Of a DNA stretch of 62,919 nucleotides, positions 34,487 to 52,866 are shown piece by piece. The notes beneath the pieces were generated by a model. It worked only from the letters and a program-made list of their open reading frames with translations, was not told the DNA's origin and searched no databases. A program made the translations under genes and the position numbers. Numbering within the stretch: position 1 is the stretch's first letter; each line of letters starts with the position of its first letter. Source of the stretch: Sulfurimonas sp. Its GTDB lineage: Bacteria; Campylobacterota; Campylobacteria; Campylobacterales; Sulfurimonadaceae. Location of the stretch: NCBI GenBank assembly GCA_027064045.1, contig JAMOQK010000007.1, positions 1-62,919 on the forward strand, read 5' to 3'.

Positions 34487-35074
34487 TTGTTAACTAAAAA
34501 AGAGCAAAAAAAAGAAAAGATAATTCGAAATGCTTTGTTACTTTTTGCAAAAAATGGTTTTTATGCTACAACTATACCAGATATAGCTTCAACACTTAAA
34601 ATGAGTGTTGGAAATATGTACAACTATTTTAAATCAAAAGATATTTTAGCAAAAGAGATTATAAAATATATATCTGCATATCTGGGTTCTAAGATAAAAA
34701 AGATAAATGAAGAGGACATTTCTACAAAAGAAAAAACAAAAAAAATCATAGAGATGTATTTTAAAACTGCTATGTCAAAACCTGAAATGATAGATTATTT
34801 TCTAAGAATATATCTCTCAAATCGTGAGGTATTTTTAGATGGCTGCGAAGGGATGATTTGTGTTAATGAGTTTGTCATAGAGGTTATGATATATTTTGAA
34901 GAAGGTGTAAAATCTGGAGATTTAAGAGATCAAGATTTTTTTAGTGCTTTTGGACTTTTTATGGGTTATCTTGGTGGTATGGTTTTTCTAAAAGGGGAAA
35001 ATATACTTCCAAAAGAGCTGAATGACTACATAGATGACATAACCTACAATATCTACAAGGCATTAAGTGTATGA
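34487..35074 (+). CDS. TetR-family regulator, paralog 1 (TTG start)
   Basis: ALLLFAKNGFYATTIPDIASTLKMSVGNMYNYFKSKDILAKEII TetR HTH. Confidence 0.93.
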   Translation: MLTKKEQKKEKIIRNALLLFAKNGFYATTIPDIASTLKMSVGNMYNYFKSKDILAKEIIKYISAYLGSKIKKINEEDISTKEKTKKIIEMYFKTAMSKPEMIDYFLRIYLSNREVFLDGCEGMICVNEFVIEVMIYFEEGVKSGDLRDQDFFSAFGLFMGYLGGMVFLKGENILPKELNDYIDDITYNIYKALSV

Positions 35075-35945
35075 TAAAAAACTAAAAATCATCTGGTTAA
35101 CTGCCATATCTTGCAATGGTAATTCACACTCTTTTTTAAATTATCCACATTTAGAACAATTTATAGACGATTTTGAATTTATCTACCACCCCCTTATCTA
35201 CTCAAAATACTCACTACAAGACTTAATCAATAAAGATATAGAATGTGATATATTACTTTTAGAAGGGGCTATATCACCAGAGTTTAAAAAGATGGATGAA
35301 CCTATTATAAATCTAGTTGATAAATATGCACACAAGGCAAAAAAGATTATCACGGTTGGTACATGTGCAACTTTTGGTGGTATATTTTCACAAAGTGATT
35401 ATGCTTATACAACCGGTCTTCATTTTGATAAAGAGAACCCAACTTTTTTGTTTAAAAGTTTAAAACATAAAACCATCTCTATATCTGGTTGCCCAATACA
35501 ACCAGAGGTTTTGGCAAATACAATCTATGCAATACAAAAAAATATGGATTTAAAATTAGATAATTATCTAAGACCTAAAGAATTTTTTGCATACACTATA
35601 CATAACGGATGTACAAGAAACGAGTATTTCGAGTACAAAGTGGATAATCATACTTTTGGTAAAAAAGAGGGGTGTATGTTTTATGAACATGGCTGTCAAG
35701 CTCCATACACTAACGGAAGTTGTAATAAGATACTATGGAATGGTGTAAACTCAAAAACAAGGGCAGGTTTACCATGTATGGGTTGTACTTCACCAGATTT
35801 TCCAAAACAAAACTTATTTAAAACTAAAAAAAACATGGGAATACCTCAAAACCTACCACTTGGAGTTGGAAAAAGAACATATCTAACATTGGCTGGTATC
35901 ACAAAAGCATTTAGTATAAAAAGGCTTGAGGAGGACTTGTTTTGA
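35067..35945 (+). CDS. Cytoplasmic-type NiFe hydrogenase small subunit (no Tat signal)
   Basis: ISCNGNSHSFL, VGTCATFGG, SGCPIQPEV, GLPCMGCTSPDFPK Fe-S motifs. Confidence 0.92.
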   Translation: MYDKKLKIIWLTAISCNGNSHSFLNYPHLEQFIDDFEFIYHPLIYSKYSLQDLINKDIECDILLLEGAISPEFKKMDEPIINLVDKYAHKAKKIITVGTCATFGGIFSQSDYAYTTGLHFDKENPTFLFKSLKHKTISISGCPIQPEVLANTIYAIQKNMDLKLDNYLRPKEFFAYTIHNGCTRNEYFEYKVDNHTFGKKEGCMFYEHGCQAPYTNGSCNKILWNGVNSKTRAGLPCMGCTSPDFPKQNLFKTKKNMGIPQNLPLGVGKRTYLTLAGITKAFSIKRLEEDLF

Positions 35946-37204
35946 TAAAATTCATAGAAAAGATAGAGGGTGAAGCTAAACTAAATTTCTCATTTGATGA
36001 ACATAAAAAGATAGATTTTGTAGATATAGAGTTTTTCTCAACAAGAAATATAGAAAAGATACTTGAGAACAAACCAGCACTTGATGCACTTGTTATAAAC
36101 CCTAGAGTTTGTGGTATTTGTGGTCATGCTCATCTCATAGCCACTACAAAGGCATTAGAAGATTGCTATAAAAATATAGAAGTACCAAACAATGCTAAAA
36201 TATTAAGAGAATTAACACTTAACTTTGAGATTATGCAAAACCATTTTAAGTGGTTTTATCTGAGCATTTTACCTCTTTTAGGAGAGAGACAGCACCTCTT
36301 AAAAGCTACTTTTCCATCTCAAATTTTAGCAAAAGCCATAGCAGTAGTTGGGGGACAATATCCACATACTTCATACAGTCTTGTTGGTGGTGTGGTTTGT
36401 GATATAACGGTAATGGATATTTTAAAAATTACACATCTCATAGATGAAGTTATGAAATATTTTGAAAAAAATTTGCTTGTTGATGAGAGTGAAGAGTTTT
36501 TAAACTACAAAAATATAGAAAATATTTTAAATAAAGATGGAGATTTAATAAAAACTTTATTAAAATTTAAACAAAATTCATGGCAGCATCTTGGTAGAAG
36601 CTATGGTAGATTTGTTGTATTTGGTCAAAATTCATACTTCAACAGTGGTAAATCCATCAAAACAACAGTAAGTAAGAATCTAAATTTCGCAAATATCAAA
36701 GAGCAAACAAATCAAAATTCATATGCTAAAAATGTTACATATAAAAATAAATACTATGAAGTTGGTCCACTTAGCAGAGCTATGTTAAATAAAATTCCAC
36801 TCATAAAAGACAGTCATAGAAAATATGGTGATAGTATATTTAGCAGAATTTTAGCCAGAATGTATGAGATACCACAACTTCTCAATCATTCAAAAAAACT
36901 ACTTGACGAGTTAGACTTAGACAAGCCTTTTTACATAGAACCAAAGATAGATATTTCAAAAATCTCAGGTTCGGGTTATGGTTGTGTTGAAGCTGCCAGA
37001 GGTACTCTTTTACATAAAGTAAAACTTCACAATGGAATTATTGAAAAATACGACATAATCACACCAACACAATGGAACCTTTCAAATGGAACTAAAGAAA
37101 AACTAGGTGTATCTCAAAAAGCAATGATTGGTCTTAGCGATATAAATTTAGCAGAAATAGTTTTTAAATCTTTTGATGTTTGTTCCGTTTGTACAACACA
37201 TTAA
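35942..37204 (+). CDS. Cytoplasmic-type NiFe hydrogenase large subunit, no C-terminal extension
   Basis: L1 RVCGICGHAH; protein ends at L2 FDVCSVCTTH*. Confidence 0.92.
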   Translation: MIKFIEKIEGEAKLNFSFDEHKKIDFVDIEFFSTRNIEKILENKPALDALVINPRVCGICGHAHLIATTKALEDCYKNIEVPNNAKILRELTLNFEIMQNHFKWFYLSILPLLGERQHLLKATFPSQILAKAIAVVGGQYPHTSYSLVGGVVCDITVMDILKITHLIDEVMKYFEKNLLVDESEEFLNYKNIENILNKDGDLIKTLLKFKQNSWQHLGRSYGRFVVFGQNSYFNSGKSIKTTVSKNLNFANIKEQTNQNSYAKNVTYKNKYYEVGPLSRAMLNKIPLIKDSHRKYGDSIFSRILARMYEIPQLLNHSKKLLDELDLDKPFYIEPKIDISKISGSGYGCVEAARGTLLHKVKLHNGIIEKYDIITPTQWNLSNGTKEKLGVSQKAMIGLSDINLAEIVFKSFDVCSVCTTH

Positions 37205-37308
37205 ATAAAACCCCAGTCTAATTTTGAGCTAGAGTTTCACAAAAAACTTAAAAATTTATAAACAAGATTCCATATTAAGTTTAAACAAAGAATATCAAAG
37301 GTATTATT

Positions 37309-37328
37309 TTGAATGAATATTCACTCAA
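37309..37328. promoter_or_regulatory. Candidate TetR operator upstream of hydA
   Basis: TTGAATGAATATTCACTCAA, 9 of 10 palindromic pairs; -10-like TATTAT at 37302. Confidence 0.5.
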
Positions 37329-37347
37329 ACAAACAAAGGAGAGAGGG

Positions 37348-38505
37348 ATGAAACATAACGACTTATTAAAAAAGTTTAATTTACGACTTGAAGAACTAGA
37401 AAAAATGCCTAGAATGGATCAGTCTAAAACAATAACAGAAGTTATTGAGGAGAAAGGTTTTTCAAGAAGAGAATTTATGAAATGGGCAACAGCTACCTGT
37501 GCTTTGTTAGCATTACCAGCTGAATTTACACCTTTAGTAGCAAAAGCTGCTGAACTAGCAGATAGACTTCCTATCATCTGGTTACACATGGCTGAATGTA
37601 CAGGGTGTAGTGAAAGTTTACTTAGAAGTGATGCACCAAGTATAGATAGTCTTATATTTGATCACATCTCATTGGAATATCATGAAACTCTTATGGCTGC
37701 CGCTGGTTGGCAAGCAGAAGAAAATCTTGAAAATGCTATGAAAAAATATAAAGGTAGATATGTATTGATGGTTGAAGGTGGTGTACCTATAGCAAATGAA
37801 GGTTCATTTTTAACTATAGGTGGTCATGCTAAAAGAGGTAAAGATATTGCCATAGAAGCTTCAAATGATGCAGCTGCTATTTTTGCTATTGGAACTTGTT
37901 CATCTTTTGGTGGTGTTCAAGCTGCCATTCCTAATCCAACTGGAGCAGTAGGTTTAAGTGAAGTAACTAACAAACCTGTTATAAATGTACCAGGATGTCC
38001 ACCTAGTGAAAAAAATATTGTTGGAACATTATTACACTTTTTACTTTATGGAACACTTCCAGCACTTGATGCATTTAACAGACCAAAATGGGCTTACAAA
38101 CACAGAATTCACGATTTATGTGAAAGAAGAGGTCATTTTGATGCAGGTGAATTTGTTGAACAATTTGGTGATGAAGGTGCTAAAAATGGATACTGTTTAT
38201 ATAAAGTAGGATGTAAAGGACCATATACATTTAACAACTGTTCAAAAAATAAATTTAATCAAGGTACTTCATGGCCAGTACAAGCTGGTTTTGGTTGTAT
38301 GGGTTGTAGTGAGCCAGATTTTTGGGATACAATGGGAACAGTTGGTGAACCACTTAAAGATAAACTTTATAACACAGTATTTGATGGTATGGGTGCAGAT
38401 GCAACAGCAGATAATATAGGTGTTAATTTACTAATAGCAACTGGTGTTGGTATAGCAGCACATGCCGCAATTTCAGCGATTAAACACCCTAAAGGAGATG
38501 AATAA
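37348..38505 (+). CDS. hydA: Tat-exported respiratory NiFe hydrogenase small subunit
   Basis: Tat motif SRREFMKWATAT; CTGCSES, GTCSSFGG, PGCPPSE; ATG at 37348 has GGAGAGAGGG SD. Confidence 0.95.
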   Translation: MKHNDLLKKFNLRLEELEKMPRMDQSKTITEVIEEKGFSRREFMKWATATCALLALPAEFTPLVAKAAELADRLPIIWLHMAECTGCSESLLRSDAPSIDSLIFDHISLEYHETLMAAAGWQAEENLENAMKKYKGRYVLMVEGGVPIANEGSFLTIGGHAKRGKDIAIEASNDAAAIFAIGTCSSFGGVQAAIPNPTGAVGLSEVTNKPVINVPGCPPSEKNIVGTLLHFLLYGTLPALDAFNRPKWAYKHRIHDLCERRGHFDAGEFVEQFGDEGAKNGYCLYKVGCKGPYTFNNCSKNKFNQGTSWPVQAGFGCMGCSEPDFWDTMGTVGEPLKDKLYNTVFDGMGADATADNIGVNLLIATGVGIAAHAAISAIKHPKGDE

Positions 38506-40238
38506 TGTCAAAAAGAGTAGTAGTAGATCCAATCACAAGGATAGAAGGACACCTTAGAGCAGAGGTTATTGTAAATGATGATGGAGTTGTAGAAGATGCT
38601 TTTGTTTCTTCAACTTTATGGAGAGGTTTAGAAGTTATTGCTAAAAATAGAGATCCAAGAAATGTTCCTCTTATAATGCAACGAATCTGTGGTGTTTGTA
38701 CATATTCTCACTACCTTAAAAGTACAATAGCAGTTGAAGATGCATTAGGAATTAAAATTCCTTTAAATGCTGAACTTGTTAGAACACTTATGAATGCTGC
38801 ATTATTTATGCACGATCATGTTGTTCACTTTTATCATCTCCATGGTGTTGATTGGGTTGATATTGTCTCAGCTCTTGATGCAGATGAAGCAAAAGCTAGT
38901 AAATTAGCTTTTAAATATACAGACAATCCAATAGCAACAGGGGAAAATGACCTTAAAAAAGTTAAGGAAACTGTAGCTAAGTTTGCTAAAAATCCTCAAG
39001 GTCTTGGACCATTTGCAAATGCTTATTGGGGACATGGAACTTATAAGTTTACACCTGAACAAAACCTAATTGCACTCTCACATTATTTAAAAGCACTAGA
39101 GATGCAAAGAATGGCAGCTCAACTTTTAGCTATCTTTGGTGGTAAACAGCCACATCCACAATCTCTTGTTGTTGGTGGAGTTAGTTGTGTTATGGACATC
39201 TTAGATCCATCAAGAATGGGTGAATACCTTACAAAATACAAAAAAATGGCTAATTTTGTAAAAAATGCTTATGTAGCAGATATTAAAATGGCTGCAGAGA
39301 TGTATAAAACAGAAGGTTCAGTTGTTAAGCCAATGGGTGTAAAAAACTTTATGGCGTATAGAGATTTTATGGTTGGCAGAGATGAATATCTGTTCGATAG
39401 TGGATATATTGAAAATGCTGATTTATCAAAAGCATTTGATATTAATGAAGATTTAATTACTGAAGAAGCAACACACTCTTGGTATGCAGATGATGAAGCA
39501 CTTCATCCATATGATGGTAAAACAAATCCTAAATATACTGGTTTTGTAGATGGTGAAAGTGTTGGACCTGATGGAAAAATGATTCATTCTCAAAATATTG
39601 ATCCTAAAGGTAAATACAGTTGGATCAAGTCTCCTAGATATGATGGTAAACCTATGGAAGTTGGTCCACTTGCGTGTTTACTTGTAAGTTATGCAAGAGG
39701 AAATAAAATTGTTCAAGCATCTGTTAATGGATTCCTAAAAGAAACAGGTCTTCCTGTTGGTGCATTGTTTACTACTCTTGGTAGAACAGCAGCAAGAGCA
39801 TTACAATGTGAAATCATTGCAGACAATGCGATTAAAGCATTTAATAACTTAATTGAAAACCTAAAAGTTGATCAAGAAACATGTGCTCCATATATCATTG
39901 ATAAAAATAAAGAGTATAAAGGTAGAGGTATTGGTGATGTTCCAAGGGGAATGCTTAGCCACTGGATCAGAATTAAAAATGGTGTTTGTGAAAATTATCA
40001 AGCTGTTGTTCCATCAACTTGGAATGCTTCTCCAGTAGATGCAAATGGTATCAAAGGTCCATATGAAGCTGATTTAGTTGGATTGAAAATTGAAAATCTT
40101 TCTCAACCGTTAGAGATTATTAGAATAATTCACTCATACGATCCTTGTATAGCATGTGCAGTACATGTTATGGATACTAAAGGGAATAAACTTAGTGAAT
40201 ACAAAGTTGATCCTCTTTATGGCAATTGTAGTGTTTAA
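38505..40238 (+). CDS. hydB: Respiratory NiFe hydrogenase large subunit
   Basis: QRICGVCTYSHYL (L1), SYDPCIACAVHVMDTKGNKLSEYKVDPLYGNCSV (L2 plus cleavable extension). Confidence 0.97.
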   Translation: MSKRVVVDPITRIEGHLRAEVIVNDDGVVEDAFVSSTLWRGLEVIAKNRDPRNVPLIMQRICGVCTYSHYLKSTIAVEDALGIKIPLNAELVRTLMNAALFMHDHVVHFYHLHGVDWVDIVSALDADEAKASKLAFKYTDNPIATGENDLKKVKETVAKFAKNPQGLGPFANAYWGHGTYKFTPEQNLIALSHYLKALEMQRMAAQLLAIFGGKQPHPQSLVVGGVSCVMDILDPSRMGEYLTKYKKMANFVKNAYVADIKMAAEMYKTEGSVVKPMGVKNFMAYRDFMVGRDEYLFDSGYIENADLSKAFDINEDLITEEATHSWYADDEALHPYDGKTNPKYTGFVDGESVGPDGKMIHSQNIDPKGKYSWIKSPRYDGKPMEVGPLACLLVSYARGNKIVQASVNGFLKETGLPVGALFTTLGRTAARALQCEIIADNAIKAFNNLIENLKVDQETCAPYIIDKNKEYKGRGIGDVPRGMLSHWIRIKNGVCENYQAVVPSTWNASPVDANGIKGPYEADLVGLKIENLSQPLEIIRIIHSYDPCIACAVHVMDTKGNKLSEYKVDPLYGNCSV

Positions 40239-40250
40239 AGGAGAATAATT

Positions 40251-40931
40251 ATGGAAACACATAATTCTTGTATAGAAAGGGAAGAAGAGTTTACTTCCCT
40301 TTATAGATGGCAACACTGGATTAGGGTAATAGCGATTGTTGTTTTAACTGTGACAGGTTTTTATATAGCAAAACCTTTTATATCGCCTATACCAAACAGT
40401 GAACCAACAAATTTCATGTATGCTCTTTTTAGAAGTTGGCATGAAATATTTGGTTTTGTTTTGACTGCTGTTGTATTATTTAAAAGCTACCTTTTTGTTT
40501 TTTCAAAAAGATATAAAGATGAAGCAGGTTCAATTAAGGATTTTTTAAGTCCAAAAATATGGATACAGCAAATTGGATACTATTTATTGGTTTCAAAACA
40601 TCCTCATTTAAGAGGAACATATAATCCATTGCAATTTATTGCATATATTGGATTTTATGTTTTAATGGCTATTTTAATACTTACAGGTCTTATCTTGTAT
40701 GTTCATGTGTATCATCAAGGTCTTGGTGGTATGCTTTATGATAGTATGAGAAACTTTGAAGTTATGCTCGGAGGTCTTGCCTTGGTTAGAGAACTTCATC
40801 ACATAGCAATGTGGGGAGTTATACTTTTTGTAGGTGTGCATGTATATATGGCGATTTACAATGCAGTTTTTGGAAAAGATGGTTCTATGGATGCGATTTT
40901 TTCTGGAAATAAATGGCATAAAAAACACTAA
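40251..40931 (+). CDS. hydC: Ni/Fe-hydrogenase cytochrome b subunit
   Basis: 226 aa, multiple TM segments, conserved His, RSWHEIFGF, LHHIAMWGVILFVGVHVYMAIY. Confidence 0.93.
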   Translation: METHNSCIEREEEFTSLYRWQHWIRVIAIVVLTVTGFYIAKPFISPIPNSEPTNFMYALFRSWHEIFGFVLTAVVLFKSYLFVFSKRYKDEAGSIKDFLSPKIWIQQIGYYLLVSKHPHLRGTYNPLQFIAYIGFYVLMAILILTGLILYVHVYHQGLGGMLYDSMRNFEVMLGGLALVRELHHIAMWGVILFVGVHVYMAIYNAVFGKDGSMDAIFSGNKWHKKH

Positions 40932-40942
40932 ATATTAGTTTC

Positions 40943-40965
40943 AAGAGAGGTTTTTCACCTCTCTT
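40943..40965 (+). promoter_or_regulatory. Intra-operon hairpin between hydC and hydD
   Basis: AAGAGAGGT-N5-ACCTCTCTT 9-bp stem without an adjacent clean U tract. Confidence 0.55.
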
Positions 40966-41005
40966 CTAAGTGATATTTTTTAAATGATATTTTAAGGAGT
41001 CTATT

Positions 41006-41557
41006 ATAAAAATTTTAATTTTAGGTATTGGTAATGTTTTATTTGGTGATGAGGGCGTTGGAGCGCACTTAGCACATTTGATAGAAAAAAAATATGAGTT
41101 TATTTCAGATAAGCATGTTGTTGATGTAGTTGATGGTGGAACTTTAGCTCAGATTCTCATACCGATGATTACTGAGTATGACAGAGTGTTTTTAATTGAT
41201 TGTGTAGATGTAGATGATGCTGAGATTGGAGATGTTTATTGTTTTGATTTTTCAGATATGCCAAACTATATAAAATGGGAAGGTAGCGCACATGAGGTTG
41301 AGATGTTACAAACTCTTCAGATGATAGAGATGGTAGGTGATTTACCACCTGTTAAAATCATAGGGGTAATCCCTTATGTTATAGGTGAAAACAGCACTTT
41401 TGAGATGACAAAAGAGGTTTTAAAAGCTTCTGAAGTTATGGAAAAACTGATTATTAATAACATTAAAGAGTTTGGAGATATTGAAATAAGAACAAAAGAA
41501 GAATTAAAAATAGCAGATGTTTGTGCTACAACATACCTAAAAGGTTTTACTATATGA
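41006..41557 (+). CDS. hydD: Hydrogenase maturation endopeptidase, apparent AUA (or AUU at 41003) start
   Basis: N-terminal IKILILGIGNVLFGDEGVGAHLAHLIEKKYEF is upstream of the first ATG (41078); AAGGAG at 40994-40999; in-frame TGA at 40985. Confidence 0.8.
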   Translation: MKILILGIGNVLFGDEGVGAHLAHLIEKKYEFISDKHVVDVVDGGTLAQILIPMITEYDRVFLIDCVDVDDAEIGDVYCFDFSDMPNYIKWEGSAHEVEMLQTLQMIEMVGDLPPVKIIGVIPYVIGENSTFEMTKEVLKASEVMEKLIINNIKEFGDIEIRTKEELKIADVCATTYLKGFTI

Positions 41558-43221
41558 TATTAGAATATGTAATAGACTATCGTTCATCTTCACAAATTTA
41601 TGAAAAGATTTTTTTAAAAAGCATAAAGGAACATTCACTCTCTGGTAAGTTGGTAAAAGATGGTTTTTATCTAAAATGTTATATTGAGGCAGATGATACT
41701 GAAAATTTTTCAAATTTTGCAACAGATTTTGCAAAAAAACTGCCCCACTCTATCTTTTTATATGATACAAAAGTTAATGTTATAGAAGACATGCCAGATG
41801 ATGAATTTATCTTAGAAGATAAGCAAAAACTAGATATACCTTTTTGTTTAGAGTGTTCAAAATCTGTTTTAGATGAAAACAGCAGTAGTTATTATGATAT
41901 TTTTAAATCATGTGATATATGTGGGCATAACATTGATGGAGAACACAAAAGCTATAAAAAAGAGTTTGAAATGATTGCTGATCTTATCAAAGATGGCAAA
42001 ACTATTAAAATCAACACTTCTTATGCAACATACAATATTGGTAAAGTTTCAAAACTATGTGATGAGATAGATTTTGATATAGTTGCTTATGATTATGCTA
42101 CTATAAAAAAATTCACACATGCCAAAGATTATGAGCTAAAAGCTTTAGCTTCTATTGAAAAACCCTTTATAAAGTTAAAAACCAATATCAAATTTAAAAC
42201 AGATATAGAAGATTTACAAGAAGAACTGATAAGATTTAAACTAGCTGATGATTTTATGTTGTATCTTTTACTTCAAGAATTAAATAAAAATGATATAAAT
42301 ATGATATTTATATCAAAAGATAAAATTAAAGCAGATGAAGAATTTATCTTATTTGAGCAAGTAACACAAAAAGAACCCATAGAAATAGTTGTTTCAAAAA
42401 ATCAACATGCCATTGTAAAGGGGGATAAAGGCTTAGAGGTTTTTCCAACATTAACAACTGAAATAGCACCAATAGTGGGAGCTACTTACTCTGTTATAAA
42501 AGAGCATAACCTAAAAGATGATAATATAGCAGGAATATATCTAAGTAAAAAATATCAAAACGGTATCGTAATATATGGGAAAAAATATGGGATGATAAAT
42601 TATCTGTCTTTAGAAGCTCATTATAACTCTATCTCAGATATTTTTCAAAAAATAAAATCTACAGATGAGAGTGGGAAAAAGCTGATTGAAAATTATATTT
42701 CTAAATTTCCAAAGCATTGTGAAAATATTTTAAATCTATCGTTTGATAAAAATTATTTTAATATCCATGAATTATGGGGAATTATGTCTATAATTTTAAA
42801 TTTTTCATCATCATCTAATTTAGATATAGCTTCAAATGTGTTACAAAACAATTCTATCTCTTTTTTAGGAAATAGAGGTCCTAGGATAGATTACAAGGTA
42901 ATTAAAAACAAAAATACAACTTCACTTAATTACCTAATGATTATAAGAAGTGCTATGAGTTTTAAACTTGCGGGGATAGATGATTTAACTTTATCTTATG
43001 GTGTTATTGAGAGTTTTGCAGAATTTCTGGTAAATGAAATAGGTGATATTAAAGATAATTTCAATGTTAGTTCAACCGTTCTTGCTGGATCATTGTTTCA
43101 AAACAGTAAACTTTTTACTAAGCTAAATGATGAAGCTTATATAAATGACGATATATATTTCAACAATCAACTTTTGATTGATGGAAAAAATATAACTTAT
43201 GGGGACTTTTTGATTAATTAA
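41554..43221 (+). CDS. hydE: HydE-like hydrogenase accessory protein (HypF-related)
   Basis: Position after hydD (ATGA overlap); CLEC...CDIC zinc-finger-like pairs; HypF-like length and layout. Confidence 0.65.
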   Translation: MILEYVIDYRSSSQIYEKIFLKSIKEHSLSGKLVKDGFYLKCYIEADDTENFSNFATDFAKKLPHSIFLYDTKVNVIEDMPDDEFILEDKQKLDIPFCLECSKSVLDENSSSYYDIFKSCDICGHNIDGEHKSYKKEFEMIADLIKDGKTIKINTSYATYNIGKVSKLCDEIDFDIVAYDYATIKKFTHAKDYELKALASIEKPFIKLKTNIKFKTDIEDLQEELIRFKLADDFMLYLLLQELNKNDINMIFISKDKIKADEEFILFEQVTQKEPIEIVVSKNQHAIVKGDKGLEVFPTLTTEIAPIVGATYSVIKEHNLKDDNIAGIYLSKKYQNGIVIYGKKYGMINYLSLEAHYNSISDIFQKIKSTDESGKKLIENYISKFPKHCENILNLSFDKNYFNIHELWGIMSIILNFSSSSNLDIASNVLQNNSISFLGNRGPRIDYKVIKNKNTTSLNYLMIIRSAMSFKLAGIDDLTLSYGVIESFAEFLVNEIGDIKDNFNVSSTVLAGSLFQNSKLFTKLNDEAYINDDIYFNNQLLIDGKNITYGDFLIN

Positions 43222-43234
43222 GATTATAAATTAT

Positions 43235-43831
43235 ATGTTAAATAAAAATAAAAAAGAAAATTTGATTATATCTTCAGCATTGAAAATGTTTTCAAAAAAT
43301 GGATTTTATAATACCAAAGTAGCCGATGTCGCAAAAAGTATAGGTATGAGTGTGGGAAATTTTTATAACTATTTTCCATCAAAAAACTCTTTAGCCAAAT
43401 CTTCTATTGTTTTTGTATCAAAAAAACTAGCTATGAAACTAAAGTATATAAACGAACAAGAGATTTCATCAAAACAAAAGATAAACCTATTTGTAAAAAG
43501 TTATCTAGTGTTTTTAACAAAACATCCAGAGATGATAAACTATTTTTTTAAAGTATATCTTGGAAATCGTGAACTGTTTTGTGAAAATGAGGATTGTGGA
43601 TTTGAATTTGCAAAAGAGTTTGTAGATGAATTAAAAAAAATGATTGATAATGGAATCGAAAAAAAGGAGTTTGTCAATCAAGATTTTTTTATATGTTTTT
43701 CTTGTATAGCTGGAATACTAGGAGGTATAACATTTTTAAATTCAGAAAATGTTTTGGATAAAGATTTAGAATTTTATGTTGACAGTTTGTCAATTTCAAT
43801 TTACAAATCTATATCATATCCTTGCGAATAG
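43235..43831 (+). CDS. TetR-family regulator, paralog 2
   Basis: ALKMFSKNGFYNTKVADVAKSIGMSVGNFYNYFPSKNSLAKSS; similar throughout to the 34487 protein. Confidence 0.93.
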   Translation: MLNKNKKENLIISSALKMFSKNGFYNTKVADVAKSIGMSVGNFYNYFPSKNSLAKSSIVFVSKKLAMKLKYINEQEISSKQKINLFVKSYLVFLTKHPEMINYFFKVYLGNRELFCENEDCGFEFAKEFVDELKKMIDNGIEKKEFVNQDFFICFSCIAGILGGITFLNSENVLDKDLEFYVDSLSISIYKSISYPCE

Positions 43832-46017
43832 GTATTCATAAAGTGGAAGCTATATTAAAAGCAAAAACGATTACAATCACGGGTAGAGTTCAAGGTGTTG
43901 GATTTCGCCCATTTATATATAAATTGGCAATAAAATTTAACTTAAAAGGATATGTAAAAAACAATGAACAAGGTGTCTTTATTTTCATCGAAGGGAAAGA
44001 TAATTATATAAAATCTTTTTTAAATGAGATATACCTAGACAACCCACCTTTAGCTGACATTGTTGATGTTAGAGTAAAAAATGTAGTTCCTCTTTATAAG
44101 GGACAGTTTGAAATAATACAGGATATAGTTGAAATTTCTACTTCCAAAACAGCGACGATTTCTCCTGATTTCGCAATATGTAACAAATGTAAAATAGAGA
44201 TACTAACAAAACCCCATAAGTACGGCAACTATTTTGCTACAAATTGTACAGATTGTGGACCAAGATATAGTATTATTCAAACTGTGCCTTATGATAGAGA
44301 AAACACCTCAATGGCAAAATTTAAAATGTGTTCTAGTTGTCAACAAGAGTATGATGACCCACAAAACAGACGCTATCATGCACAACCTATCTCTTGTCAT
44401 AAATGTGGACCTAGTTTAAATATGAGTATTGAAGATATGGCAAAATATATCAAAAATGGAGATATAGTTGCCATAAAAGGGATAGGTGGTTTTCATATTG
44501 TTTGTGATGCAACAAATGACAATACACTCAAACAGCTAAGAGAGTATAAGCATAGACCAACAAAACCTTTTGCTATCATGTGTAAAGATTTAAAACAGTT
44601 ATCAACATTAGCAGAATTTTCTAAAAAAGAAGAGATGATTTTAACTTCAAAAGAAGCCCCCATTGTAATTTTAAAAAAACTAAATAAATCTATAATATCT
44701 AAAGAGATTGCTCCAAATATAGATAGAATTGGTTGTTTTTTACCATATACACCACTTCAATACCTACTTTTTCAACATCTAAAAACCCCCATAGTAGCAA
44801 CAAGTGCAAATCTAAAAGGGGAGCCAATCATAACAAATATCGAAGATATTAAAACAAAACTCCCATTTATAAAGCATATTTTAGATTTTGACAGAGATAT
44901 AGTAAATGCAATAGATGATAGTTTAACTCAAGTGGTAGATAACAAGATACAAATACTAAGAAATGCCAGAGGTTATACACCAAAAACCATAAAACTTAAA
45001 AATAAAATAGATAAAAAAATTTTAGCAGTTGGAGCAAATCAAAAAAGCACAATAGCACTTGCATTCGATGATAAAGTTATTTTAAGTCCATATATTGGGG
45101 ATTTAAATTCTATAAAAAGCTTTGATTTTTTTATAAGAACAATAGAGAGTTTTAAACGATTTTACGATTTTGAACCAGATGTCATCATAATAGACAAACA
45201 TCCAAACTATGAAACAACAAAATGGGCAAAACAACAAAATATAAAACTTTTCGAGGTGCAACACCATTTAGCACATATCTATGCTACTAAAGCTGAATTT
45301 AATTTAGATAAAGATTGTCTTGGCTTTAGTTTTGATGGTACTGGATATGGAGATGATGGCACTCTTTGGGGTGGAGAAGTTTTTGTCGGGGATGAAAGAA
45401 AATATCACTTTAAACCTATTAAACTGCTTGGTGGAGATAAAGCTATAAAAGAGCCAAGAAGAGTAGCTTTAAGTATGCTTTTTGATAACTATAACCTTAC
45501 TGAAATTTTAAATTTTAAATTACCATTTGAAAAAAATGAGATAAAACTTTTATATAAAAGTTACATAAACAATCTAAACGCACCACTAAGCACATCTGTT
45601 GGAAGGATGTTTGATGGAGTAGCAAGTTTATCAGGATTTTGTGATTTTCAAACCTATGAAGGGGAAGCTGGTCTTTTATGTGAAAAAGCATATAATCCCA
45701 CATGCCAAGAGAATTTTAATTTTAAAATTGATAATGGAACAATAGATATAAATTTTGATTTTTTTGATAAAAATCTGGTAAGTAAATTTATAAATACTCT
45801 TGTTGAAATTATCATATATATATCTAAAAAAGAAAAGATTGATGTGATTTTAAGTGGTGGTGTTTTTCAAAATAAAACACTCTTAGAACTAACTTTAAAA
45901 AGGTTAAAAGAGCAACATATCAACTACTATCATCAACAAAACACACCTATAAATGACAGTGGTATATCTTTAGGACAAATTTGGAAATATATAAGTACCT
46001 TAAATAATTTTAGCTAG
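43822..46017 (+). CDS. hypF: Carbamoyltransferase HypF
   Basis: GRVQGVGFRPFIYKLA acylphosphatase; two zinc-finger motifs; YrdC-like and Kae1-like domains. Confidence 0.96.
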   Translation: MRIGIHKVEAILKAKTITITGRVQGVGFRPFIYKLAIKFNLKGYVKNNEQGVFIFIEGKDNYIKSFLNEIYLDNPPLADIVDVRVKNVVPLYKGQFEIIQDIVEISTSKTATISPDFAICNKCKIEILTKPHKYGNYFATNCTDCGPRYSIIQTVPYDRENTSMAKFKMCSSCQQEYDDPQNRRYHAQPISCHKCGPSLNMSIEDMAKYIKNGDIVAIKGIGGFHIVCDATNDNTLKQLREYKHRPTKPFAIMCKDLKQLSTLAEFSKKEEMILTSKEAPIVILKKLNKSIISKEIAPNIDRIGCFLPYTPLQYLLFQHLKTPIVATSANLKGEPIITNIEDIKTKLPFIKHILDFDRDIVNAIDDSLTQVVDNKIQILRNARGYTPKTIKLKNKIDKKILAVGANQKSTIALAFDDKVILSPYIGDLNSIKSFDFFIRTIESFKRFYDFEPDVIIIDKHPNYETTKWAKQQNIKLFEVQHHLAHIYATKAEFNLDKDCLGFSFDGTGYGDDGTLWGGEVFVGDERKYHFKPIKLLGGDKAIKEPRRVALSMLFDNYNLTEILNFKLPFEKNEIKLLYKSYINNLNAPLSTSVGRMFDGVASLSGFCDFQTYEGEAGLLCEKAYNPTCQENFNFKIDNGTIDINFDFFDKNLVSKFINTLVEIIIYISKKEKIDVILSGGVFQNKTLLELTLKRLKEQHINYYHQQNTPINDSGISLGQIWKYISTLNNFS

Positions 46018-46042
46018 ATTTTATAAAAAAGACTATAGAATA

Positions 46043-46062
46043 CTGAATGAATATTCATTAAA
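46043..46062. promoter_or_regulatory. Candidate TetR operator upstream of the Ni-transporter/hyp operon
   Basis: CTGAATGAATATTCATTAAA with perfect AATGAATATTCATT palindrome (46046-46059); -10-like TATAGAAT at 46034. Confidence 0.5.
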
Positions 46063-46071
46063 AGGTTAAAT

Positions 46072-46719
46072 ATGAATGAATTTGGACTCTTACTTATATT
46101 TTGGTATGGTATCCTCCACGCTTTTGGTCCCGACCATCTCACAGCTATCGCAGATTTTTCCATCGGTAAAGACAAGAAAAAAACTTTACTTATAACAACG
46201 CTTTTTGCCATGGGTCATGGTCTTAGTCTTTTTGTATTTGCTAAAATTTTACAAAGTATAGACATAAGTGAGAATATTTTAAGATATGGTGATATGATCT
46301 CAGCATCTGTTATTTTAAGTATGGGGGTATATCTACTATATATGGTTTTTACAGACAAAATCCATCTAGGTTATCATACTCATACAGATGGTAGTCAACA
46401 TACTCATATATACTTTGGCAAAGAGCATCAGCATGATAATAATGTTGCTACAACTTCAGCCTTCACAATGGGTCTTTTGATGGGTGCAGGTGGTGTTCGT
46501 GGTATGCTTGTTACACTTGGAGTATTACAAGGGCAAAATGTTGATTTTACACTCGTTTTAGCTTTTACTTTAGGAGTTATGCTTATCTTTGTAGGTTTTG
46601 GTGTTTTTATTTTGTATATTAATCAAAATTTATTAAACTCAAAACAAAATATAAGAAGAGTTTTTGCAACAGCAGGAGTTATCTCATTAGTTGTTGGCAG
46701 TAGTTTTATAGTTGGATAA
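46072..46719 (+). CDS. NicO/UreH-like nickel/cobalt transporter
   Basis: LHAFGPDHLTAIADFSIGK and His-rich loop HTHTDGSQHTHIYFGKEHQHDN. Confidence 0.85.
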   Translation: MNEFGLLLIFWYGILHAFGPDHLTAIADFSIGKDKKKTLLITTLFAMGHGLSLFVFAKILQSIDISENILRYGDMISASVILSMGVYLLYMVFTDKIHLGYHTHTDGSQHTHIYFGKEHQHDNNVATTSAFTMGLLMGAGGVRGMLVTLGVLQGQNVDFTLVLAFTLGVMLIFVGFGVFILYINQNLLNSKQNIRRVFATAGVISLVVGSSFIVG

Positions 46720-46744: not shown

Positions 46745-47521
46745 ATGTGTGCAGATTGCGGATGTTCTATAACAGGACACACTCACGAACATAGTCATGA
46801 ACATCATCACGGAAGTAGCGAAGAACATCAAAAAGCTCATGGACACCTACATGACAATCCACAACTAAATGATGCTAAAACCATCTCGGTAATACAAAAG
46901 ATACTTGATAAAAATGACCATGAAGCAAAACACAATAGAGAGCATCTTGAAAAAAATGGTGTACTTGGTGTAAATCTTATGAGTTCCCCCGGAAGTGGAA
47001 AAACAACTATTTTAGAGTATTTAGCAGATGTAGCTGACTTTAAATATGGTGTTGTTGAGGGTGATTTAGAGACAAGCAGAGATGCAGACAGACTCAAAGC
47101 CAAAGGGATAGAGGCTCATCAGATTCAAACAGGAAGTGCTTGTCATCTTGATGCTTTTATGGTTCATAAAGCACTTCATCATATAGATTTAAACAAAATA
47201 GATGTCTGTTTTGTGGAAAATGTTGGCAACCTTGTTTGCCCTGCAAGTTATGATGTTGGAACTCACTTAAATATAGTACTTGTTTCCATACCTGAGGGTG
47301 AAGATAAAATTGCAAAATATCCTGTGATGTTTCGTCAAGCAGACTTAATTTTGTTTACAAAAACAGACCTTTTACCATACTTTAATTATGATATAGAAAA
47401 AGAGAAAGAAACTGCAAGAAAGCTAAAACCAAATGTTGATATGCTTGAAGTAAATATAAATGATATTGAGAGTATCAAAAATATCGCTTCATGGATAGAA
47501 TTTAAAAGGAAGATGAGATAA
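46745..47521 (+). CDS. hypB: Hydrogenase nickel-insertion GTPase HypB
   Basis: CADCGC N-terminus, His-rich stretch, GVNLMSSPGSGKTTILEYLAD P-loop. Confidence 0.97.
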   Translation: MCADCGCSITGHTHEHSHEHHHGSSEEHQKAHGHLHDNPQLNDAKTISVIQKILDKNDHEAKHNREHLEKNGVLGVNLMSSPGSGKTTILEYLADVADFKYGVVEGDLETSRDADRLKAKGIEAHQIQTGSACHLDAFMVHKALHHIDLNKIDVCFVENVGNLVCPASYDVGTHLNIVLVSIPEGEDKIAKYPVMFRQADLILFTKTDLLPYFNYDIEKEKETARKLKPNVDMLEVNINDIESIKNIASWIEFKRKMR

Positions 47522-47823
47522 TGTGCCTATCTATACCAAGTAAAGTTGTAAAAATAAACAAAGAAACAAATGTAGCAACTGTTGATACGATGGGTATCAA
47601 AAGAGATGCTTCTCTTGATTTAATGGCAGAAGATGATGTAAAAGTTGGGGATTTTGTACTTCTTCATATAGGTTTTGTTATGAATAAAATAGATGAGGGA
47701 GATGCTCTTGCCTCGATTGAAACATACAAAGAGATACTTGCCATCATGGATGAAGAGGATCGGCAACAGGCAATTTTGGAAGAAGATGAAATGAGTGTCC
47801 AAACAGAGGTAGCACCTAAGTGA
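47521..47823 (+). CDS. hypC: Hydrogenase assembly chaperone HypC
   Basis: MCLSIPSKVV...VGDFVLLHIGFVMNKID. Confidence 0.96.
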   Translation: MCLSIPSKVVKINKETNVATVDTMGIKRDASLDLMAEDDVKVGDFVLLHIGFVMNKIDEGDALASIETYKEILAIMDEEDRQQAILEEDEMSVQTEVAPK

Positions 47824-48962
47824 AATTAGAACTAAAAAATCTTTATGATGATTTTAGAGATGGTAAAACTATCAAAGCCTATGCCAAACTCATAGAAGAT
47901 GAAGCAAAAAAGATAGATAAAGATATAAATATTATGGAGGTTTGTGGAGGTCATACACACACCATTATGAAATTTGGTCTGCCACAACTCATGCCAAAAA
48001 ACATCCATTTTATCCATGGTCCAGGGTGTCCTGTATGTATTATGCCAAAAGAGAGGATAGACCATGCTTATGTTTTAGCAATGCAAAAAGATGTAATTCT
48101 TGTAACTTTGGGCGATATGATAAAAGTTCCAGGAAGTCACGGAAGTTTACAAAATGCAAGAGCAAAAGGTGCTGATGTCAGGTTTGTTTACTCCCCAATG
48201 GAGTGTATAAAAATAGCAGATGAAAATCCAAACAAAAAAATAATCTTTTTTGCTATTGGATTTGAGACAACTACCCCCATGACTGCTGCACTTGTGGATT
48301 TTACACTAAAAAAAGATATAAAAAATATATATTTTCACATAAACCATGTAACAGTTCCAGAAGTTATGAAAGAGCTAATTGACAGTAGAGATGAGCATGT
48401 GGACAGTTATAACAATCGTATTGATGCTTTTTTAGGACCTAGTCATGTAAGTGTAATAGCTGGAGCAAAAATATATGATCAGTTTCCAAGAGATTATGGC
48501 AGACCTGTTGTTGTGACAGGATTTGAACCTGTTGATATGATGGAAGGTGTTTATAAAATTCTAAAACAATTCACAGAACAAAGATGTGAAAACGAGATAC
48601 AATACAATAGAGTTGTAACTTATGAAGGCAATACAAATGCCCAAAAACTCATAGATAAATATTTTGACAAAGTAAATCTTTTTAAATGGAGAGGTCTTGG
48701 AAATGTACCAGATAGTGGACTTAAACTAAAAGATAAGTTTGCTAAATATGATGCAGAAGTTATATATGATGAGATATTACCAAAACATGAGATAGAAGAT
48801 CATAAACTTTGTATTTGTGGAGATATTTTACGGGGTATGGCTCATCCGACAGAGTGTAGTATTTTTGGTACAGCATGTAAACCAAGTAGCCCAGTGGGGA
48901 GTTGCATGGTTAGTAGCGAGGGAGCATGTGCAGCTTACTTTAAATATGGAAATATGGTATAA
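47820..48962 (+). CDS. hypD: Hydrogenase maturation protein HypD
   Basis: MEVCGGHTHTIMKFG; HGPGCPVCI; CICGDILRG...TACKPSSPVGSCMVSSEGACAAYFKY. Confidence 0.97.
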   Translation: MKLELKNLYDDFRDGKTIKAYAKLIEDEAKKIDKDINIMEVCGGHTHTIMKFGLPQLMPKNIHFIHGPGCPVCIMPKERIDHAYVLAMQKDVILVTLGDMIKVPGSHGSLQNARAKGADVRFVYSPMECIKIADENPNKKIIFFAIGFETTTPMTAALVDFTLKKDIKNIYFHINHVTVPEVMKELIDSRDEHVDSYNNRIDAFLGPSHVSVIAGAKIYDQFPRDYGRPVVVTGFEPVDMMEGVYKILKQFTEQRCENEIQYNRVVTYEGNTNAQKLIDKYFDKVNLFKWRGLGNVPDSGLKLKDKFAKYDAEVIYDEILPKHEIEDHKLCICGDILRGMAHPTECSIFGTACKPSSPVGSCMVSSEGACAAYFKYGNMV

Positions 48963-48963
48963 T

Positions 48964-48988
48964 ACTTTTAAAAGTACTCTTTAGAGTA
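48964..48988. promoter_or_regulatory. Tandem palindromes upstream of the toxin-antitoxin pair
   Basis: ACTTTTAAAAGT (48964-48975) abutting TACTCT-TT-AGAGTA (48975-48988). Confidence 0.5.
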
Positions 48989-49005
48989 TTGTTAAGGATG
49001 TGACA

Positions 49006-49254
49006 ATGATAGTAACTGCAAATGAAGTAAAAAAAAGAGGTGTATCTCTTTTTGATGAACTTTTTGAGAAGTTTGATGATTTGATTATAAGTGTCAGAGG
49101 TAAAAAAAAGTATATCGTTATGGATTATGAGCGATATGAAAAGATAAGAGAATATGAGTTAGATAGAGCATATAAAGAGGTTATGGAGGATATTGAGAAT
49201 GGGGATTATCATACAGATATAGATAAACACCTCAAAGAGATAGCAGATGTATGA
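49006..49254 (+). CDS. Phd/YefM-type antitoxin
   Basis: MIVTANEVKKRGVSLFDELFEKFDDLIISVRGKKKYIVMDYERYEKIR. Confidence 0.85.
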   Translation: MIVTANEVKKRGVSLFDELFEKFDDLIISVRGKKKYIVMDYERYEKIREYELDRAYKEVMEDIENGDYHTDIDKHLKEIADV

Positions 49255-49519
49255 GATAAAAATCACAAAAAGATATGATAGAGTTTCAAAAAAGTTTTTT
49301 AAAAAACACCAAAATTTAAAAGACAGATATATCAAAACTATCAATATCTTAAAAACAAACCCTTTTCATCCATCTCTTAGACTTCACAAACTTCAAGGGG
49401 AGACAAAAGAGTATCACTCTGTTTCAATAGATATGCAATACAGAATAATTATAGATTTTATCATAATAGATGAGCAGATAATTCTCATAGATATTGGCTC
49501 ACATGATGATGTTTACTAA
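49247..49519 (+). CDS. RelE/YafQ-type mRNA interferase toxin
   Basis: YEIKITKRYDRVSKKFFKKHQNLKDRYIKTINILKTNPFHPSLRLHKLQG...YRIIIDFIIIDEQIILIDIGSHDDVY. Confidence 0.88.
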   Translation: MYEIKITKRYDRVSKKFFKKHQNLKDRYIKTINILKTNPFHPSLRLHKLQGETKEYHSVSIDMQYRIIIDFIIIDEQIILIDIGSHDDVY

Positions 49520-49528
49520 AGGATAATA

Positions 49529-50527
49529 ATGCAGAAAAATATAACCTTAGCCATGGGAAATGGTGGCGAAGAGAACAATAAACTTATAACAGATATATTT
49601 TATAAAGCTTTTAAAAATGAGATTTTAGAGAGATCTGAAGATGCCGCAGTGCTTGGTTTTGGAAACGAAAAAATAGCTATGAGTACCGACAGCTTTACGG
49701 TAAGCCCCATATTTTTTAGTGGCAGTGACATAGGAAAACTAAGTATTTGTGGAACTTGTAATGACCTTGCTATGATGGGGGCAAAACCAAAATATCTAAC
49801 AGTTGGGATAATTCTTGAAGAGGGATTTTCAATAAAAGATCTACAAAAGATAGTAAGAAGCATGAAAAAAGAACTTGAGATAAACGGTGCTATTGTAGTT
49901 AGTGGAGATACAAAAGTTATGCCAAAAGGTACACTAGATAAAATCATCATAAACACAACAGGTGTTGGTGAAATTTTATATGATGGGATTAGCTCAAACT
50001 CTATTACAGAAGAAGACACTATTATAGTTAGTCGTGATATAGGTTGTCATGGTGCGACTATATTTGCTTCAAGAGAGGGAATAGAACTTGAGAGTGAATT
50101 AAAGAGTGATTGTACTTCATTGTTTCCAATAGTAAAAAAACTCATAGATGGTGGAGTGAAAATCACAGCCCTAAGAGATGCAACAAGAGGTGGAGTAGCA
50201 GCGGTGCTAAATGAGTGGGCAAAACAAAGTGACATTTGTATAGAAGTGGATGAAGATAGCATACCTGTATCACAAGAGGTTTACGGCATGTGTGAAATGC
50301 TTGGATTTGAAGCAACTGCATTGGCAAACGAAGGAACTTTTTGTCTTTCAATAAAAAAAGATGATGAGAAAAAAGCACTTGAAATTTTAAAAGAGTTTAA
50401 TCCACATGCCACAACCATAGCAAAAGTGACATCATCACATAAACAAAAAGTTATACTTAACAGCTCTTACGGTACTCAAAGGTTTTTAGACACTCCAAGT
50501 GGAGAATTGCTTCCTAGGATTTGTTAA
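49529..50527 (+). CDS. hypE: Hydrogenase maturation protein HypE
   Basis: MAMGNGGEE-type N-terminus, AIR-synthase-like fold, C-terminal PRIC. Confidence 0.96.
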   Translation: MQKNITLAMGNGGEENNKLITDIFYKAFKNEILERSEDAAVLGFGNEKIAMSTDSFTVSPIFFSGSDIGKLSICGTCNDLAMMGAKPKYLTVGIILEEGFSIKDLQKIVRSMKKELEINGAIVVSGDTKVMPKGTLDKIIINTTGVGEILYDGISSNSITEEDTIIVSRDIGCHGATIFASREGIELESELKSDCTSLFPIVKKLIDGGVKITALRDATRGGVAAVLNEWAKQSDICIEVDEDSIPVSQEVYGMCEMLGFEATALANEGTFCLSIKKDDEKKALEILKEFNPHATTIAKVTSSHKQKVILNSSYGTQRFLDTPSGELLPRIC

Positions 50528-50531
50528 ATAT

Positions 50532-50903
50532 ATGAAAATTAATCCAAATATATCATGTCCATGTGGAAGTGGTAAAAAGTATAAAAAATGTTGTGCTGTT
50601 TTTCACAAAGGAGGTTATCCTAAAAATGTGCTAAGCCTTATGAAAAGTAGGTATAGTGCTTTTACCCTTGGTAAAATAGACTACATCATAAAAACTTCAA
50701 CTTTTCAAAATGATTATGATGACTTAAAATCATTTAGTGAAAATTGTGAGTTTAAAAAACTTATAATCTTAGACCATACTGAAGATAGTGTAACCTTTAA
50801 TGCAACTGTATTTTGTAATAACATGGATAACAGTTTTACTGAAAAAAGTAAATTTATTATGGTTGATGGCATGTGGAAGTATGAAAGTGGAGAGATACTT
50901 TAG
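50532..50903 (+). CDS. YchJ-like SEC-C metal-binding protein
   Basis: CPCGSGKKYKKCC near the N-terminus; YchJ-like MKSRYSAF...; ATG at 50532 follows the hypE stop. Confidence 0.85.
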   Translation: MKINPNISCPCGSGKKYKKCCAVFHKGGYPKNVLSLMKSRYSAFTLGKIDYIIKTSTFQNDYDDLKSFSENCEFKKLIILDHTEDSVTFNATVFCNNMDNSFTEKSKFIMVDGMWKYESGEIL

Positions 50904-52532
50904 ATGAAAATAACACTTCTCATAACCAGTTTTAATTCTATTTCTCAACTTGTTTATACATATTTAAAAGACAAAAATCACAAAACAGATATTGTCTTTG
51001 CCACTTCACTCACAAGAGATAAAGAGATACAAGATTTTAACCCAGACTTGATATTGTGTCCTTTTTTGAAGCATTATATCCCACATGCCATATATGAGAA
51101 CTATCCAACTTTTGTTTTTCATCCAGGTATTAGAGGTGACCGTGGAGCTTATTCGCTTGAGTATGCTTTAAATGAAAAAAGTTGGGGTGGTGTGATTTTA
51201 AAAGTGGATAAAAACTATGATGGTGGAGACATTTTTGCCTCATTTAAATTTGAGATGAGAGATACTTACAAGGCTTCACTTTATAGAAATGAGATAAAAA
51301 AAGGATTTTTTGACATACTTGATCAATTTTTTAAAAACTACAAAGAGGACACAAAGACCCCACAAATCCTAAACCCACTCCACAAAAAGCCACATGCCAA
51401 GATAGATTGGCAAAGAGATACAACCAAAGAGATAGTTAGAAAAATAAATATGCTCGATAGTTACCCTGGCATAGAAGATGAGATTTTAGGTCTAACATAC
51501 CACCTTTTTGGTGCATGGGAAGAGGAACAACTAAAAAGTGATAAACCAAAAGAGATTTTAGCAAAAAGAGAGGGTGCTATCTGCATATCAACCATTGATG
51601 GTGCAGTATGGATAACACATCTAAAAACAACAGATGGTTTTAAATTACCAGCAACCTATGTTTTAAAAGAAAAACTAAAAGGGGTAAAAGAGGTTAGACT
51701 CCCCTTGCTTTTTGATATGAGTTATAAAACTTTTTATGAGATAAGCCATACTATGGATGGGGATGTAGCATACCTGTGTTTTAATTTTCACAATGGTGCT
51801 TTTATGGCAGAGCAATGTATAAGATTAAAATATGCTTTTGAATTTTTGAGAGAGAGTGCCAAAGTTATTGTGCTGATAGGTGGAAGAGATTTTTTTAGTA
51901 ATGGTATCCACCTAAATATCCTAGAAGACAGCAAAAAAAATGGTGAAGATGGCTGGAGCAATATAAATGCGATGAATGATTTGATTAAAAGCATAATATT
52001 TGCAGATGATGTTATAACGGTTGCTTCACTTCATCAAAATTCTGGTGCTGGTGGTGTATTTTTAGCTTTGGCATGTGACTTTGTTGTGGGTGCCAAAAGT
52101 GCAACGATAAATCCACACTATAAAACTCTTGGACTCAGTGGAAGTGAATATCATACATATACTCTGCCAAAAAGAGTTGGTAGAGATATGGCTACGAAAT
52201 TACTTGATGAGTGCCTACCCATCTCAACCCCACATGCCAAAAAGATAGGGATGATAGATGAAGTTTTTGATGATGATGGATACTTTAAAACTTTACGAGA
52301 ATATACTCAAAATATTATAAAAGATGAAGATGAATTTGAAGATTTTTTATATGAGAAACAAGATTATTTAGAAGAAAATGAGCAAATGATAGAGATAGCA
52401 AAAGAGGATGAAATAAAAACAATGTATCCAGAATTTTGGGATAAAAAAAGTCCATTTCATAAACTTAGATACGATTTTGTATATAAAGTTTGCCCAACAA
52501 AAACTCCAAAAAGGTTAAAATACAATGCATGA
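50904..52532 (+). CDS. hypX: HypX (formyltransferase-like plus enoyl-CoA hydratase-like)
   Basis: N-terminal formyltransferase-like [25 protein letters not shown]-terminal crotonase-like [17 protein letters not shown]. Confidence 0.9.
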
Positions 52533-52866
52533 ATATAGTATAGTCCAATCACTGCTTGATAGTTGTGAAGAAAATGCCAAAGAAAATAACAGTGAAAAAA
52601 TCGCAAAAGTTGTAGTTAAAATAGGTGTTATGAGTGGTGTAGAACCAGATTTACTCAAAACTGCTTTTGATACTTTTAAAGAGGGTACTATGTGTGAAGA
52701 TTGTGAGTTTGTCATAAATATACAACCCATACTGGTACTCTGCCGTAGTTGTAATACAAAATCCACACTGAGTAAAAATGAATACGAATGTCCAAAGTGT
52801 AAAAGTGTTGAGTTAGATGTATTAGATGGTGAAGATATGTATCTTATGCAACTAGAATTAGTCTAA
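52525..52866 (+). CDS. hypA: Hydrogenase nickel-incorporation protein HypA
   Basis: [16 protein letters not shown]...CPKC zinc site. Confidence 0.96.

Follow-up and report, generated by a model that had tools for sequence, protein, structure and literature searches.

TetR1, the product of a gene directly upstream of a cytoplasmic [NiFe] hydrogenase (CytSL), probably represses the uptake hydrogenase genes hydABC and the hyp genes, with CytSL, an enzyme of the group-2d type, as its H2 or redox input. We place the probability of this reading at about 0.58. The genes lie in a stretch of 62,919 nucleotides (the window) from a 1.53-Mb Sulfurimonas sp. draft genome that is 75% complete. An earlier note on this DNA had suggested a circuit built on a pair of TetR proteins and an extension-less hydrogenase. 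The link between a TetR protein, the extension-less hydrogenase and a palindrome held up, in two phyla and against a set of loci lacking cytL, whereas the TetR pair as the core of the circuit did not.

Whether the group-2 cytoplasmic hydrogenase of Campylobacterota acts as a sensor or as an electron supplier has been a question for years (PMC4584964, PMC7952632). With a conserved putative repressor, a defined candidate operator and an almost 1:1 co-occurrence in two phyla, it can now be tested directly. If correct, our reading would mean that H2 can reach gene expression by a second path, used by lineages that figure prominently at hydrothermal vents; it would also offer a compact part for H2 biosensors.

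A conserved module of tetR1, cytS and cytL

The genes of the island lie on the + strand in the order tetR1, cytS, cytL, palindrome, hydA-hydE, tetR2, hypF, palindrome, nicO-hypBCD-(toxin-antitoxin pair)-hypE-...-hypA:

34487..35074, +, TetR1, 195 aa; TetR_N domain (E 1e-11), hydrogenase-linked, with orthologs next to cytSL throughout Campylobacterota
35067..35945, +, cytS, small subunit of the cytoplasmic group-2 [NiFe] hydrogenase; Pfam Oxidored_q6 and NiFe_hyd_SSU_C, CNGN proximal motif
35942..37204, +, cytL, large subunit without C-terminal extension; PF00374, RVCGICGHAH ... FDVCSVCTTH*, placed by alignment and tree
37280..37307, +, promoter-like TTTAAA-16-TATTAT; consensus match only, ends 2 bp 5' of the candidate operator
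37310..37327, no strand, putative palindromic operator TGAATGAATATTCACTCA at hydA, 23 bp 5' of the hydA ATG at 37351
37351..38505, +, hydA, exported small subunit of the uptake hydrogenase; TIGR00391
38505..40238, +, hydB, large subunit with C-terminal extension; family match and tail comparison
40251..40931, +, hydC, b-type cytochrome subunit; TIGR02125
41006..41557, +, hydD, maturation endopeptidase; TIGR00072 and TIGR00140, apparent ATA start
41554..43221, +, hydE, 555 aa; no Pfam or NCBIfam match
43235..43831, +, TetR2, 198 aa, sporadic TetR1 paralog; TetR_N, FC-x5-C
43822..46017, +, hypF; TIGR00143
46044..46061, no strand, putative palindromic operator TGAATGAATATTCATTAA at the nicO-hyp operon, 10 bp 5' of nicO
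46072..46719, +, nicO-like nickel transporter, first gene of nicO-hypBCD...; PF03824, slightly under cut-off
46745..52866, +, hypB, hypC, hypD, a Phd/YafQ-type toxin-antitoxin pair, hypE, YchJ-like, HypX-like and hypA; open reading frames, with Pfam matches for the toxin-antitoxin pair, the YchJ-like and the HypX-like genes

The tetR1 and cytS genes overlap by 8 bp and cytS and cytL by 4 bp, giving the trio an operon-like arrangement. As the earlier note had remarked, the island holds no histidine kinase or response regulator: none was found among the open reading frames of about 24.9-54.0 kb of the window. A Phd/YefM-YafQ-type toxin-antitoxin pair (window 49000-49519) separates hypD from hypE. 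At the start of hydD (window 41003-41008) an ATA stands where relatives use TTG, GTG or ATG, with an ATT just 5' and a good AAGGAG preceding; this is either a rare start or an error in the draft sequence. The adjoining hydE (41554-43221) belongs to no Pfam or NCBIfam family, yet is kept beside hydD in related clusters. The tetR1-cytSL-hyd-hyp island is also borne by a 50-kb plasmid of Sulfurimonas paralvinellae (NZ_CP041407.1, locus L270); there, an integrase gene immediately precedes tetR1, and the hyd genes are separated from the hyp genes by one for a transposase.

The earlier note had left conservation in relatives to be checked, and the order tetR1-cytS-cytL indeed recurs across Campylobacterota. 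At 60 cytL loci a TetR gene lies directly 5' of cytS, save a few where the contig ends first, and named loci of Sulfurimonas, Sulfurovum, Sulfuricurvum, Sulfurospirillum, Aliarcobacter, Poseidonibacter, Nitratiruptor and Nautiliaceae show the same arrangement. Conservation of TetR1 is unusually high: mean pairwise identity is 63% for TetR1, 51% for CytS and 45% for CytL.

Among 200 Campylobacterales genomes cytL was present in 95 and TetR1 profile matches in 100 (both in 94, cytL only in one, TetR only in six, neither in 99), and the same search of 121 Aquificota genomes found both in 48, cytL only in two, TetR only in four and neither in 67; these counts cover related genomes, so Fisher p-values overstate the evidence. 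The six TetR-only Campylobacterales genomes comprise three with contigs cut inside cytSL, one TetR2-type gene, one degenerate copy and one true loss of cytSL (G148). TetR1 and cytL are adjacent in 18 Aquificota genomes, more than 12 kb apart in 12 and on different contigs in 18, indicating that co-occurrence is not only a neighbour effect. In the separate cases inspected, the TetR gene often adjoins hypB, hypD, hypX or hydA. One Aquificota genome (L224 597-1529) encodes a PAS-like protein, judged by eye, between TetR1 and hydA.

A palindrome shared by hydA and nicO-hyp

The single palindrome that the earlier note had seen at both operons was recovered at 37310-37327 and 46044-46061. Two matches with at most three mismatches were observed in the window against 0.16 expected from shuffles, and the 1.53-Mb genome, 75% complete, contains no third copy at two mismatches or fewer. 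In relatives, the 300 bp 5' of hydA were searched at up to four mismatches in 60 loci with cytL and 40 without. The palindrome was present at 56/60 of the former and 3/40 of the latter, so that its conservation, likewise left open by the earlier note, was confirmed. The association with cytL persists within families holding both states (CMH p 2e-6) and within each hydA subtype (18/20 with cytL vs 2/28 without, and 38/40 vs 1/12). Of the three cytL-negative exceptions, one (L100, a Sulfurimonas) has lost cytSL and kept both TetR1 and the palindrome; the remaining two belong to a family whose other members possess the module. Together, L100 and the subtype data show that the palindrome follows TetR1 and not the kind of uptake hydrogenase.

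The palindrome also recurs at other hydrogenase genes. Arcobacter-type genomes with two hydAB sets carry it before each set, as do two genomes of the genus Aliarcobacter (L293, L294), laid out like A. butzleri, at both hynAB sets. It stands at nicO in two further loci (L055, L066), and in Aquificota it is found before hypB (L200, L221, L222) and before hydA. A point against our reading is its generic TetR-type shape; TetR1 is presumably the protein that binds it. TetR1 very probably controls hydABC and the hyp genes.

The 88 palindrome sites have in common a -10-like hexamer that ends 2 bp 5' of the palindrome (best of 35 offsets), which in the window is the TATTAT of TTTAAA-16-TATTAT. A protein bound directly 3' of such a box would cover the transcription start, suggesting repression.

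TetR1's own promoter carries the palindrome in only 6/65 cases (up to four mismatches), and thus the sensor-side operon of Campylobacterota looks unregulated by TetR1. An unregulated tetR1-cytSL operon and a palindrome-bearing hydA would fit a sensor that is always present and whose output is regulated. Kruse et al. (2017) noted a TetR gene upstream of hupSL in Sulfurospirillum multivorans and proposed that it might repress hupSL (PMC5357620). TetR1 as a local repressor of cytSL alone would agree with that tetR lying directly 5' of hupSL, whose hupL transcripts were mostly undetected (PMC5357620), but the rarity of the palindrome 5' of TetR1, set against its frequency at hydA, argues against it. 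Since the palindrome also tracks the presence of TetR1 and cytL, and TetR1 in Aquificota is often far from cytSL, we regard purely local repression as very improbable.

A scan for degenerate sites gave 38 sites against 9 in a reversed control in 27 genomes with cytL, many of the 38 at hydA, and 8 against 7 in 16 genomes without it. A wide regulon was considered and rejected; apart from hydA in one genome (G034), most of the extra sites inspected had no evident relation to hydrogenase or lay where two genes converge.

The earlier note had described two full-length TetR paralogs, one heading the cytoplasmic hydrogenase genes (34487-35074) and the other hypF (43235-43831). Both proteins score above the Pfam cut-off for TetR_N, and a full-length comparison gives 43% identity. 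As a conserved unit, the pair is rejected on the distribution of TetR2: only TetR1 is a conserved regulator, while TetR2 falls in a sister clade, well supported and patchily distributed, that has its own Cys spacing, and its gene, between hydE and hypF, sits outside the conserved module. TetR2, or another TetR protein, might nonetheless bind the palindrome in this genome; its identity to TetR1 and a TetR2-clade gene whose own promoter carries the palindrome (L306) speak for this. Extra TetR copies beyond TetR1 occur, however, in about ten of 200 genomes, whereas the palindrome is near universal in genomes with TetR1 and cytL, and we consider a binder other than TetR1 improbable. At two loci (L312 4014-4622, L313 4074-4688) regulators of the TetR2 clade adjoin group-4-like (NuoD-type) hydrogenase genes, which suggests that hydrogenase-linked TetR proteins make up a broader family.

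A group-2d-type cytoplasmic hydrogenase

CytS and CytL are without leader peptide; CytS starts MYDKKLKIIWL..., and this start is aligned in relatives. CytL stops three residues past DxCxxC (...FDVCSVCTTH*), as do 137 CytL-type sequences, whereas HydB of the window carries a C-terminal extension. The extension-less cytoplasmic enzyme of the earlier note is thereby substantiated, and with such an end a protease would not be needed. The Ni- and Fe-ligating Cys are conserved in CytL in the alignment.

In the large-subunit tree the 33 CytL rows, from Campylobacterota and Aquificota, group in a clade of their own (100/100), separate from HoxC/HupV and from groups 2a and 2b. Judged by the organisms that carry it and by the names given to it in Arcobacter and Sulfurospirillum (PMC12286921, PMC5357620), CytSL matches group 2d (HuaSL/HupSL of Campylobacterota, Aquifex hydrogenase III). 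The single clade apart from 2a and 2b, the cytoplasmic location and the leaderless small subunit agree with it. The type that it matches goes by the name of group 2d (PMC12286921) or group II among other authors. The closest solved structures are those of Huc, a group 2a enzyme, its small subunit being the closest to CytS. Group 2a has a CxGN small-subunit motif in common with CytS, but the 2a large subunits compared, unlike CytL, retain the C-terminal extension and come with a protease gene.

HoxBC/HupUV sensors signal via the HoxJ/HupT kinase and the HoxA/HupR regulator. Like them, CytSL is a cytoplasmic [NiFe] enzyme with a large subunit lacking the C-terminal extension, it is encoded beside a transcription regulator, and its system would control an uptake hydrogenase. 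In contrast, the first motif of CytL reads RVCGICGHAH where HoxC/HupV have R[VI]CGICSVSQ, and CytS has CNGN in place of the CGGC of HoxBC/HupUV. Regulator and kinase-type genes flank hoxBC on pHG1, whereas the cytSL island encodes a TetR protein and neither a kinase nor a sigma-54 activator. Membership of CytL in HupUV is excluded by its motifs and its own clade in the tree. The contrast with HoxBC/HupUV drawn by the earlier note thus stands, in the separate clade and in the missing kinase or NtrC-type partner.

The candidate input to TetR1

With its TetR_N domain and TetR fold (predicted structure, pLDDT 93), TetR1 belongs to the TetR family. Its best fold matches are FadR-type TetR repressors (B. 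subtilis and B. halodurans FadR; TM about 0.8, ~20% identity). FadR senses acyl-CoA; TetR1 differs from it by an invariant Cys pair and by its putative hydrogenase targets. Both cysteines of GCEGMxC (Cys-x4-Cys; C120, C125) are kept in 123/124 distinct TetR1 sequences, and the model places the pair in a loop before the eighth helix, where it may have a redox or metal role.

We propose that TetR1 serves specifically to repress the uptake hydrogenase system. When no signal is received, TetR1 would occupy the 18-bp palindrome over the transcription start of hydABCDE and of nicO-hyp, blocking both. CytSL, made together with TetR1 from one overlapping operon, would activate H2 and relay this to TetR1 through contact or through electrons altering the redox state of the Cys-x4-Cys pair. 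Signalled TetR1 would then release the DNA, allowing the uptake hydrogenase, the nickel importer and the maturation genes to be made. CytSL is a somewhat better than even candidate for the H2 input of TetR1. In its fullest form, the proposal is a one-component H2-sensing circuit, in which a catalytically competent [NiFe] hydrogenase would act on a TetR Cys pair through electrons or conformation, with no kinase, and so determine how strongly the uptake hydrogenase is expressed in both Campylobacterota and Aquificota; this form we hold to be less likely than not.

Both sensing and electron supply have been suggested for this enzyme (PMC2628731, PMC4584964, PMC7952632). TetR1 might control hydABC and hyp through the palindrome in response to another signal (nickel, thiol redox state or a metabolite), with CytSL a merely co-operonic, metabolic H2 oxidiser that delivers low-potential electrons to CO2 fixation. 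In favour are the precedent of hydrogenase III of A. aeolicus, the reported closest characterised homolog, which has been treated as catalytic, and proposals involving the rTCA cycle (PMC4584964, PMC2628731). Furthermore, L100 retains TetR1 and the palindrome without cytSL, the Cys pair alone could sense redox, and the putative regulon includes a Ni transporter. A merely metabolic CytSL is harder to reconcile with the near 1:1 co-occurrence of TetR1 and cytL in two phyla, even when unlinked, or with the usual place of cytSL in the TetR1 operon, which is without palindrome. Moreover, in Sulfurimonas denitrificans the cytoplasmic enzyme is transcribed, yet soluble H2 uptake activity was not found (PMC4149538). 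We therefore consider this alternative rather unlikely, and favour CytSL as the input.

Published data on the response to H2 conflict between species. Growth of Arcobacter butzleri with H2, in which the electron donor also differed, raised both hynAB sets 2.3-6.2 fold, and huaSL itself fell (PMC12286921). In S. multivorans hydB was about twofold up with H2, a change that was not significant (p 0.22; PMC5357620). In the literature searched, with many subscription papers outside reach, we found no paper linking TetR, the palindrome and hydABC. On a plasmid of Runella slithyformis (L288 1-1681), two TetR genes lie directly 5' of a group-2a-type hydrogenase.
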